Shown here piece by piece: positions 33,554 to 38,623 of a stretch of 64,000 nucleotides of DNA; the first letter of the stretch is position 1; each line of letters begins with the position of its first letter. The position numbers and the translations under genes are program-made. The notes under the pieces are model-generated. The model made no database searches, was not told where the DNA came from, and saw nothing but the letters and a program-made list of their open reading frames with translations. The stretch comes from a candidate division WOR-3 bacterium (GTDB lineage Bacteria > SDB-A), in the NCBI GenBank assembly GCA_016934535.1, contig JAFGSQ010000019.1:1-64000 (forward strand). Reading direction: 5' to 3'.

Positions 33554-33570
33554 GGATCTTTTCCTTATAA

Positions 33571-33600
33571 AGAGGGGGGCCCTGCTCCCCTCTTTTTTTT
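33571..33600 (+). terminator. Rho-independent terminator of the secreted-protein gene
   Basis: GAGGGG pairs with CCCCTC around a GC-rich loop and is followed by eight T residues, 17 bp after the stop codon. Confidence 0.9.
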
Positions 33601-33837
33601 ATTCACTTTGCGGTAGAAGTTATTTTTTTCATACTAGTTTTTAAGATAAAGAAATTTCTACCACGAAGTATAAAATTTTGGGACAAATTTTATATGACAC
33701 TGTTTTATTTCTTCCTGCTTCGTGTAGGAGGATTGCTTGCAATCCTCTTTTCGTGCAGGTGGGAAGCGATGCTTCCCACCCTTCGTGGTTGATATCTCTT
33801 GTTCTTTCTCTTTATATTAAATACAAAATACAATTTT

Positions 33838-33959
33838 TACCACGAAGCAGAGGCATGTTAAATTACATTCAGCATGCCTCTTACACGAAGGTCTGCTTAT
33901 TTGCACAGAGCAAATAAGCAGCCTACACGAAGTATAAAATTTGTGAAACAAATTTTATA
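33838..33959. repeat. 122-bp direct repeat, copy A
   Basis: Copy A holds three hairpins in order. It matches copy B (34113-34234) at all but three positions. Its first stem (AGAGGCATG/CATGCCTCT) is perfect. Confidence 0.92.
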
Positions 33960-34112
33960 TGAAAAAGTTCTTTGGATTAATTTTCTTCACCTTCGTGAAG
34001 ATGGATTGTTTACAATCCATCCTTCGTGAAGCCGCTAATATTCGCGGCCTTCGTGGTGGATATCTCTTTTTGTTTTTATTTCTAAGTTTAATTAAAGAAA
34101 TAAGAGAATTTC

Positions 34113-34234
34113 TACCACGAAGCAGAGACATGTTAAATTACATTCAGCATGCCTCTTACACGAAGGTCTGCTTATTTGCACAGAGCAAATAAGCAGACTA
34201 CACGAAATATAAAATTTGTGAAACAAATTTTATA
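34113..34234. repeat. 122-bp direct repeat, copy B
   Basis: Same three hairpins as copy A. One change breaks a pair in the first stem (AGAGACATG), while another extends the second stem to TCTGC/GCAGA. The third spacer box has changed from CACGAAG to CACGAAA. Confidence 0.92.
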
Positions 34235-34366
34235 AATAAACCTCTTTCTGCTTTCTTTCCTTTGTGTTCCAATTTTTGTTTGCAAAAATTGTATCCGCGG
34301 TTATATTCTTTTTCTTAAACTTCATAATGAAATCCCAAGTTGTGATTTCAGCCGACGAAAGTTTTA

Positions 34367-34375
34367 TGTTATAAT
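34367..34375 (+). promoter_or_regulatory. Extended -10 promoter of the zinc-ribbon operon
   Basis: TGTTATAAT is an extended -10 (TGnTATAAT) with only a poor -35. The predicted start near 34382 lies about 17 nt before the ATG at 34399. Confidence 0.5.
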
Positions 34376-34398
34376 AGTTTTTTTTGAAAAGGCGGAAA

Positions 34399-36627: not shown

Positions 36628-38255
36628 CAGAAAAAACAAAATTTTCAATAAAACGGGGACAAATCCCTTTTGAAGTGTTCAAATCTTCCGGCCTCAATCT
36701 TGAAAACGTCATAGCCTGCCGCCTGAACGGTTTTCCCGCGGACCTGCTTCTGCAGGTAAAGGATTCATTCAATGTCACTCCTATAACCGCTTCCGATACT
36801 GATTGGCTGAGGATATACAGAAACTCGATGACCTTTCTCCTTTTCAGGGCGGTCAGCGAGATATTCAGAAACACTCGTGTGGTAGTCAACCATTCCATTT
36901 CTTCGGGATATTATTACGAAATTGTGTCGTCAGTTCTCCCGAGGGCCGACGAAATTACGGCCATCGAATCGAGAATGAAAAAAATCGCCGAAAACGACGA
37001 AGAAATCCAGCGGGAAGTAATTTCAAAAGAAAAAGCCGTCAAACTTTTTGAGAATAAAGGCAGAAAAGACACGGCCGGCCTTTTAAAAAATTACGACCGT
37101 GACGAAATCGTCCTGTACAAATCCGGCCCCGTTTTTGATTTTTATAATTCTCCTCTCGCTCCCAAAACCGGCATTCTCAAACATTTCGCTGTAAAATCAT
37201 ATCCGCCTGGAATCGTCGTTCAGTTTCCGTCTGCCAATAACCCGTCAAAGCTCGGTCCGTGGAAAGAACAGAAAAAGCTGTTTAAAATATATCACGAACA
37301 GAGGAGATGGAATCAGATACTCGATATAATCAATGTCAGAGACCTGAATCAGGCTATTGCCCGAGGAAAGGGAGGAGAAATTATCCGGGTCGCTGAAGCC
37401 CTGCACGAAAAGAAGCTTTCCGCTATAGCCGACGAAGTTTCCCACGACCGCCAGAAAAGGGTCATTTTGATTTCCGGACCGAGCTCGTCAGGAAAGACGA
37501 CTTTTTCGCGCAGACTGACAATAGCCTTGCAGGTAAACGGACTCCGGTCGGTGACTCTCTCGCTTGACAACTACTTCGTCGACAGAGAACAGACTCCCCT
37601 CGACGAAAAAGGGAATCCCGATTATGAGTCTCCTAAAACAATTCAGACCGATTTATTCCGTGAACAGCTCCTGAGCCTCCTAAACGGCAAAAAGGTCCGG
37701 GTTCCCAAATTCGATTTCACGACGGGAAAGAAAAAAGTCAATTCGGTCGAGACGTCCATAGAACCGGGTCACCCGATAATAATCGAGGGCATCCACGCCC
37801 TGAACGAAGATCTGACTGATATGCTCGAACCCGAAGTGAAACTGAAACTTTACGCAAGTCCGTTGACGCAGGTCAACATGGACGATCACAACAGAGTAAC
37901 TACGTCCGACTGCCGTATACTGAGAAGGATTGTCAGGGACAGCCAGTTCAGAGGCTACAGCCCCACGGACACAATTAACAGATGGCAGAGCATCTCCCGC
38001 GGCGAAGGAAGATGGATCTACCCTTATCAGGAAACCGCCGACATCATGTTCAACACTTCTCTCATATACGAGATACCGGCCTTAAAAAGAAAAGCCGTCG
38101 AAATGTTAAAAACAGTAAAAGAATCTGAACCGGCGTACATGGAAGCAGTCAGGCTTCTATCAATTCTCGAATTTTACTCCGAGATGGAAACAGATGAAAT
38201 ACCATTCACTTCCGTCCTCAGGGAGTTCATTGGCGGAAGCGTTTTTAAATACTGA
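36624..38255 (+). CDS. Uridine-kinase-like protein with N-terminal tRNA-synthetase-like domain
   Basis: A 543-residue protein with two halves. Residues about 1-200 resemble the TGS/second additional domain of threonyl-tRNA synthetase (RLNGFPADLL; VVNHSISSGYYYEI). Residues about 280-500 are a uridine/phosphoribulokinase-type P-loop kinase with ISGPSSSGKTTFSRRL, SLDNYFVDRE and IIEGIHALNE. This fused form is known in many anaerobes as a nucleoside kinase or uridine kinase homologue; its substrate is not settled. It overlaps the zinc-ribbon operon by 4 bp and acpS by 1 bp. Confidence 0.88.
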   Translation: MTEKTKFSIKRGQIPFEVFKSSGLNLENVIACRLNGFPADLLLQVKDSFNVTPITASDTDWLRIYRNSMTFLLFRAVSEIFRNTRVVVNHSISSGYYYEIVSSVLPRADEITAIESRMKKIAENDEEIQREVISKEKAVKLFENKGRKDTAGLLKNYDRDEIVLYKSGPVFDFYNSPLAPKTGILKHFAVKSYPPGIVVQFPSANNPSKLGPWKEQKKLFKIYHEQRRWNQILDIINVRDLNQAIARGKGGEIIRVAEALHEKKLSAIADEVSHDRQKRVILISGPSSSGKTTFSRRLTIALQVNGLRSVTLSLDNYFVDREQTPLDEKGNPDYESPKTIQTDLFREQLLSLLNGKKVRVPKFDFTTGKKKVNSVETSIEPGHPIIIEGIHALNEDLTDMLEPEVKLKLYASPLTQVNMDDHNRVTTSDCRILRRIVRDSQFRGYSPTDTINRWQSISRGEGRWIYPYQETADIMFNTSLIYEIPALKRKAVEMLKTVKESEPAYMEAVRLLSILEFYSEMETDEIPFTSVLREFIGGSVFKY

Positions 38256-38623
38256 TGATTCAGGGAATTGGCATAGACATAGTCGAAAAGAGAAGAATAG
38301 CGTCCGCTTTGAGCAAATTCGGCGTCAGATTCGCTGAAAAGATATTGTCTGAATCCGAACTTGCCGAATTTACGTCGAGAGAATATGATATCGAATGGCT
38401 TGCGGGAAGGTTTTCCGCCAAAGAAGCGGCTTCCAAAGCTATCGGCACCGGAATGAGAGACGGGATATGGTTCAAGGATTTTTGTGTTGCCTCTTCGGAT
38501 GGAAAACCAGCAATAATATTGAATGGCAATGCTAAAAAACGCGCAGGCGACGGATTTTTTCATCTTTCAATAAGTCACGAAAGAGAATACGCAGTTTCAG
38601 TAGTAATATTCGAGAAAGGATAA
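38255..38623 (+). CDS. acpS: Holo-[acyl-carrier-protein] synthase
   Basis: AcpS transfers phosphopantetheine from CoA to apo-ACP, needed for fatty acid and lipid A synthesis. The 122-residue product has GIGIDIVEKRRI with the metal-binding aspartate. It also has LAGRFSAKEAASKAIGTG with the catalytic glutamate, and LSISHEREYAV. The start overlaps the preceding stop (TGATG). Confidence 0.95.
   Translation: MIQGIGIDIVEKRRIASALSKFGVRFAEKILSESELAEFTSREYDIEWLAGRFSAKEAASKAIGTGMRDGIWFKDFCVASSDGKPAIILNGNAKKRAGDGFFHLSISHEREYAVSVVIFEKG

Follow-up and report, generated by a model that had tools for sequence, protein, structure and literature searches.

The hairpin array at 33643-34308 of the window, the whole 64,000-nucleotide stretch of candidate division WOR-3 DNA that we analysed, is probably built from a MITE/REP-like element, palindromic, non-coding and dispersed, that stands there in three tandem copies and spreads non-autonomously (probability about 0.7). 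The element is real, repeated, structured and dispersing; its box is fixed and its stems are free but paired, and it can contain or bracket genes (GxxExxY, a DUF6036-like nucleotidyltransferase, MntA/HepT and Fic). We compared the genome of the window (G000) with two genomes of the same WOR-3 genus (G001 and G002) and one of a sister genus (G003); all three array-bearing genomes are draft MAGs. A mobile modular element is favoured because the pattern is multi-copy with zero matches in the reversed control, the modules are genus-restricted, the stems covary and ladder folds form; because copies are present or absent at orthologous sites (contigs C56, C70, C18 and C44) and change in size at the window site and on C10; and because a core of 87 nt is identical between genomes, modules are shuffled and genes lie between arms (G001 C28 and G002 C126). 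Among the three options of the initial annotation (a mobile or recombination-built element, transcript-processing hairpins or protein-binding sites), the first is the best supported. We infer that spread would be non-autonomous, an enzyme supplied in trans recognising the boxes or the folded single strand, and that exchange at repeated boxes and central hairpins may lengthen or shorten elements.

Three tandem elements in the window

Hairpins were defined as the segments left after cutting the array sequence at its boxes. The results revealed 11 exact CACGAAG/CTTCGTG boxes, three near-boxes and 12 hairpins, which bears out the initial annotation of at least eleven inverted repeats on this 7-bp box. 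All 11 exact boxes of the array fall within 33662-34165, with four more in the ~63 kb of the window outside it; the near-boxes each carry one mismatch (TTTCGTG at 33749, CACGAAA at 34201 and CTTTGTG at 34260). The array does lie where it had first been placed (33651-34295), but it extends slightly beyond, to about 33643-34308, and is made of three tandem elements, not one long list of hairpins. The element plan runs from a left inverted end through box-hairpin modules to a central AT hairpin, then through modules in opposite orientation to a right inverted end, with zero to three modules ('box + hairpin') in each of the oppositely oriented arms. The terminal sequences of the element type are TTTCTACCACGAAG ... 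CTTCGTGGTTGATATC (inverted).

Element 1 (33643-33806; no strand is assigned to any of the three) is without left modules. Its left inverted end (33643-33668, including a box at 33662-33668) is followed by the central AT hairpin (33669-33694), a box (33718-33724), a hairpin (33727-33748), a near-box (33749-33755), a second hairpin (33758-33780) and, on the right side, a box (33781-33787) and the right inverted end, up to 33806. The two 26-nt inverted ends (33643-33668 and 33781-33806) are 81% complementary. Element 2 (33818-34078) is complete and folds as a ladder. After the left inverted end, three boxes (33841, 33884 and 33926) separated by two hairpins form its left arm, the central AT hairpin (33933-33959) leads into a pyrimidine-rich linker, and the right arm runs in the opposite direction with boxes at 33991, 34022 and 34049, again separated by hairpins, before the right inverted end. 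Element 3 (34097-34308) has boxes at 34116 and 34159, a near-box at 34201, a central hairpin (34208-34234) and a near-box at 34260-34266. Its degenerate right arm, which is the same as that of the orthologous element in G002, comprises a hairpin (34270-34291) and a decayed right end, TATCCGCGGTTATATTC. Elements 2 and 3 share a 172-nt repeat (87% identity) that contains their left hairpins. No ORF of at least 80 aa was found within 33554-34383, and no gene cassettes lay between the hairpins of the window. CRISPR, dismissed from the outset, is excluded on anatomy, as there is no constant repeat with unique fixed-size spacers; the box-to-box hairpin spacers measure 20-36 nt, recur between loci and flip in orientation at the centre.

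Folded as single-stranded DNA, element 2 forms a ladder in which box 1 pairs with box 6, box 2 with box 5 and box 3 with box 4, the hairpins protruding sideways. Its fold energy was -66.6 kcal/mol, compared with -22.9 kcal/mol for shuffled sequence (z -13.2 as DNA, -12.8 as RNA), and an element on another contig, C10, gave a similar ladder fold (z -14.4). This pairing of boxes, together with the complementary 26-nt ends, confirms the second-level palindrome that had been proposed. Box counts are often unequal between the two arms of an element, so the ladder fold is not obligatory.

Dispersal and turnover within one genus

The box-and-hairpin grammar, for which further loci had been anticipated in this genome and its relatives, recurs in both. 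A pattern of two boxes 22 to 52 nt apart gave 26 matches in the own genome and none in the reversed control; the two congeners gave 18 and 17 box-spacer-box matches, and the sister genus G003 gave none. Copies were frequent at contig ends (e.g. C55, C6, C32, C52, C37, C73 and C76 of the own genome), as expected of true multi-copy repeats. A covariance model of box, hairpin and box, run on 386 genomes, gave 9 to 11 modules per genome in the three WOR-3 genomes; the other 383 yielded no more than two matches, both marginal (E 0.003 and 0.009). The module is restricted to one WOR-3 genus, with clear matches in three genomes among 386; its absence elsewhere is stated on the basis of this search.

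We also looked for the same grammar in other phyla. A triple-box pattern occurred in at least 118 genome stretches and 26 viral stretches, to all of which a hairpin filter and to a selection of which the module model was applied; among the matches listed, only the WOR-3 contig clearly retains the grammar, and the remaining stretches resemble coding repeats, tandem repeats or chance. A phage or plasmid origin was rejected: DNA searches of phage and plasmid records gave no match, and neither did a search of viral contigs for the specific left end.

At the site orthologous to the window array, G002 keeps both flanks and has a single short element between them. The surplus in the window (33696-34235) amounts to ~510-540 bp and runs from central hairpin to central hairpin; its junction is best placed in the repeated ACAAATTTTATA, the exact point being uncertain because the ends of the surplus are repeats. 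G001 carries a different element set at this site. Elsewhere, the C56 element is absent in G001 and the C70 element is absent in both G001 and G002 (both flanks aligned in each case), the C18 and C44 elements have no counterpart in G001 (one flank aligned), and the C10 element differs in size at the orthologous site. As far as can be judged, an assembly artefact is unlikely, since the 70.9-kb contig continues on both sides of the array and the G002 ortholog has a shorter element within the same flanks. Contigs of G000 and G001 share an 87-nt core at 100% identity, whereas the orthologous flanks compared are 71-85% identical. Recent movement or transfer fits this pattern; cross-binning of the draft genomes could also produce it but is less likely. 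Neither a cognate transposase nor a target-site duplication was identified for the WOR-3 copies, the relatives being too diverged for the latter.

Two elements lie near tRNA genes: one ends ~10 bp from a tRNA-Asn gene and another stands ~200 bp from a tRNA-Asp gene (L156:178-456, G002 C133; L133:8086-8443, G000 C61).

Genes between inverted box arrays

On contig C28 of G001, a GxxExxY gene (PF13366, TIGR04256) lies between three left and three right boxes. It scored 152.7 bits against the TIGR04256 profile (cut-off 35), and D67, E77 and K79, the PD-(D/E)XK residues, are invariant among nine GxxExxY members; on profile score and conserved residues it belongs to GxxExxY TIGR04256 / PDDEXK_3. Comparison of GxxExxY with solved structures gave no convincing match, no GxxExxY gene was found in phages or viral contigs, and the searched literature gave no role for the annotated family. 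Other genes are placed likewise: a DUF6036-like nucleotidyltransferase gene (a weak match, just under the Pfam cut-off) between two arms on G002 C126, MntA/HepT and Fic genes bracketed by elements on G002 C12, and a Fic gene adjoining an element on G000 C61.

GxxExxY genes were also found between inverted arrays in other lineages. The array-free sister genus has a single GxxExxY gene (G003 C423, L162:1740-2240), which is bracketed by a different inverted array, built of AACCACTGATAAACACAGCAAAACACAG and its near complement, with arms AACCACTGATAAACACAG... and ...CTGTGTTTATCTGTGGTTA. Plasmid-labelled records of other phyla carry GxxExxY between inverted arrays in Bacteroides (TTCACCACAGAGGACGCAGAGGACACGGAG), Bernardetia, Gemmatirosa and Sphingomonas. 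In Sphingomonas parapaucimobilis (NZ_CP155749.1, L370:1440-1900), the GxxExxY unit sits between fabD and fabG with inverted CACGCGAAG arrays, the right of which overlaps the end of the GxxExxY gene. We scored inverted flanks by shuffle-corrected z-scores for 11 GxxExxY genes from four phylum-level groups. The results showed that 6 of the 11, with z 7 to 19, scored above the 99% level set by 158 control ORFs (at the 95% cut-off, Fisher p 4e-5), and the other five had no significant inverted flanks. One control ORF, at 38255-38623 of the window, reached z 8.2 for inverted flanks, with no box array recognised by eye.

Gene-less copies occur as well. Bacteroides finegoldii has palindromes of ~72-161 bp with the same boxes and no gene in ordinary intergenic gaps, and arrays closely similar to those of Bacteroides were found in Gemmatirosa and Scytonema (91-94% over ~33 nt). 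The gene-less Gemmatirosa palindrome AACCGCAGAGGACGCAGAGG...CCTCTGCGTCCTCTGCGGTT (for example L369:1295-1380) has at least 40 and at least 39 similar places on NZ_CP007129.1 and NZ_CP007130.1, respectively. At seven Bacteroides copies of the related type, we saw no target duplication of at least 4 nt. The open-access papers searched held no description of these boxes or of their link to GxxExxY.

GxxExxY is a candidate mobility enzyme or a frequent passenger. The odds are about even that GxxExxY and the other genes are all passengers and that some other enzyme is the mover: Fic, MntA/HepT and the DUF6036-like gene are likewise enclosed, and G000 and G002 are rich in arrays and have no GxxExxY gene. 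On the other side, GxxExxY stands between inverted arrays of different boxes in four phylum-level groups, and gene-less copies with matching boxes occur in the same organisms as GxxExxY units. The WOR-3 element may belong, as a version without a gene, to a wider group of elements whose inverted short-box arrays enclose a gene, often GxxExxY. The fullest version of this idea we offer tentatively, as the less probable case: a widespread, undescribed mobile class, with a GxxExxY PD-(D/E)XK nuclease (or toxin/defence cargo) between inverted, lineage-specific box arrays, would move without target duplication through folded single-stranded ends and would have expanded to hairpin ladders in this WOR-3 genus. 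In several unrelated phyla, similar inverted box arrays surround a small nuclease-like gene, which hints at poorly described mobile DNA, and the link to GxxExxY provides a concrete candidate enzyme or passenger, with predictions testable in culturable Bacteroides and Sphingomonas.

Stem variation and relation to known systems

We assembled a catalogue of 78 box-hairpin modules. The commonest class reads CACGAAG, a 9-bp stem, a 4-nt loop, CTN and CACGAAG; the closing base of the stem is the C of CTN. Across 18 distinct 24-nt modules, the 9-bp stem and 4-nt loop were invariant, 94.4% of cells were paired, and two-sided changes affected 32 cells compared with 10.0 after shuffling (0/500). Pairing of the hairpins is thus retained while the stem letters vary. 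The grammar of constant box and variable hairpin stands as originally described, with stem letters differing by paired changes; 'unrelated hairpins' was too strong a term, given these paired changes, the 87% repeat across elements 2 and 3 and the hairpin classes that recur in the genus. The same classes are reused in varying combinations across the genus, the right arms showing, from outer to inner, GGTGGGAAG+GAAAAAATG, GGTGGGAAG+GGACAAATG, GAAAAAATG+GGACAAATG and GAAAAAATG+GATGAATTG. On G001 C28 (L144:723-1155), right arms recur every ~121 bp as tandem repeats whose hairpin modules have been exchanged. The CACGAAG elements are intermixed with simple arrays (AACCACGAATTGACACGAATGGACGCGAA) of a second box type, CACGAAT/CGCGAAT (L133:67-120, L141:865-1209 and L153:2228-2310).

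Perfect stems could also arise by template switching during replication, which corrects imperfect palindromes and needs no hairpin function or recognition. Covariation alone cannot separate selection from such correction, and some modules are imperfect intermediates, but the constant 9-bp stem, 4-nt loop and CTN module end are left unexplained by correction alone. We regard this process as possible, though less likely than not; it is compatible with mobility.

The letters that trail a module before the next box are mostly CTA (29 of 78), CTT (19) and CTG (15), so that the trailing tag read on the opposite strand is GNAG, most often GTAG. Together with the tagged hairpins in opposed orientation and one Y1_Tnp (RAYT-like) gene per genome, this could indicate REPs or BIMEs moved by a resident RAYT (a Y1 HUH transposase), with box plus GNAG as the tag at the hairpin foot; in some families, GTAG tags are known in the decayed forms GYAG or GYRG (PMC3733652). 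The initial annotation had likewise suggested looking for a recombinase or a REP-associated tyrosine transposase. However, the gene occurs in all four family members, including array-free G003, none of the four RAYT loci (in G000, L130:4234-5160 on C32) has flanking box arrays, a lone box inside a neighbouring gene being the only one nearby, and the stem sequences are unconserved. We therefore consider a RAYT-driven origin unlikely. It is equally unlikely that the arrays serve the host as transcript-processing hairpins or as nucleoid, topology or regulatory protein sites: they are intergenic and fold stably as both DNA and RNA, but they are missing from orthologous gaps, lie in various positions and orientations with respect to the adjacent genes, and match known RNA families at best far under the Rfam gathering scores.

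REP-like palindromic repeats are common, yet for few of them is the spreading machinery known. With a fixed tag and a free stem, recognition, if any, must rest on the box plus shape, which is testable. The GTAG- and CGTC-tagged REPs, BIMEs and REPINs (PMC3733652, PMC3116915) resemble the WOR-3 element in their short tag at the hairpin foot, opposed orientation, clustering, intergenic location and genus-restricted families. In the WOR-3 element, by contrast, the constant part is the 7-nt box, boxes pair across the element, no palindrome is conserved in the family, as the stems vary compensatorily, and no RAYT flanked by repeats was found at the four RAYT loci, in line with the first assessment that this is not an ordinary REP/BIME.

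The Bacteroides and Gemmatirosa CACAGAG/CGCAGAG arrays share with the WOR-3 element inverted short boxes, dispersed gene-less palindromes and GxxExxY between arrays; unlike in WOR-3, their boxes are consecutive with ~2-nt spacers and have no hairpin modules. The S. pneumoniae BOX element has a boxA/B/C architecture and is set beside the WOR-3 element by description, not by sequence. MITEs, including BOX and P. gingivalis BrickBuilt (PMC10969869, PMC4596501), are likewise short and non-coding, with inverted ends, repeated internal units and a length that varies by copy. The WOR-3 element is short and non-coding with terminal inverted repeats, and is present in multiple dispersed copies that are present or absent at orthologous sites. 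As for ends shared with an autonomous transposon, the GxxExxY gene on G001 C28 lies between ends of the WOR-3 element and is not a known transposase. In contrast to MITEs, what repeats inside the WOR-3 element is a constant box carrying a hairpin whose sequence changes, with the units inverted about a centre, and no parent transposase or target duplication has been identified. The WOR-3 element works like a MITE/REP composite, and belongs with MITEs by its ends, size and dispersal only.
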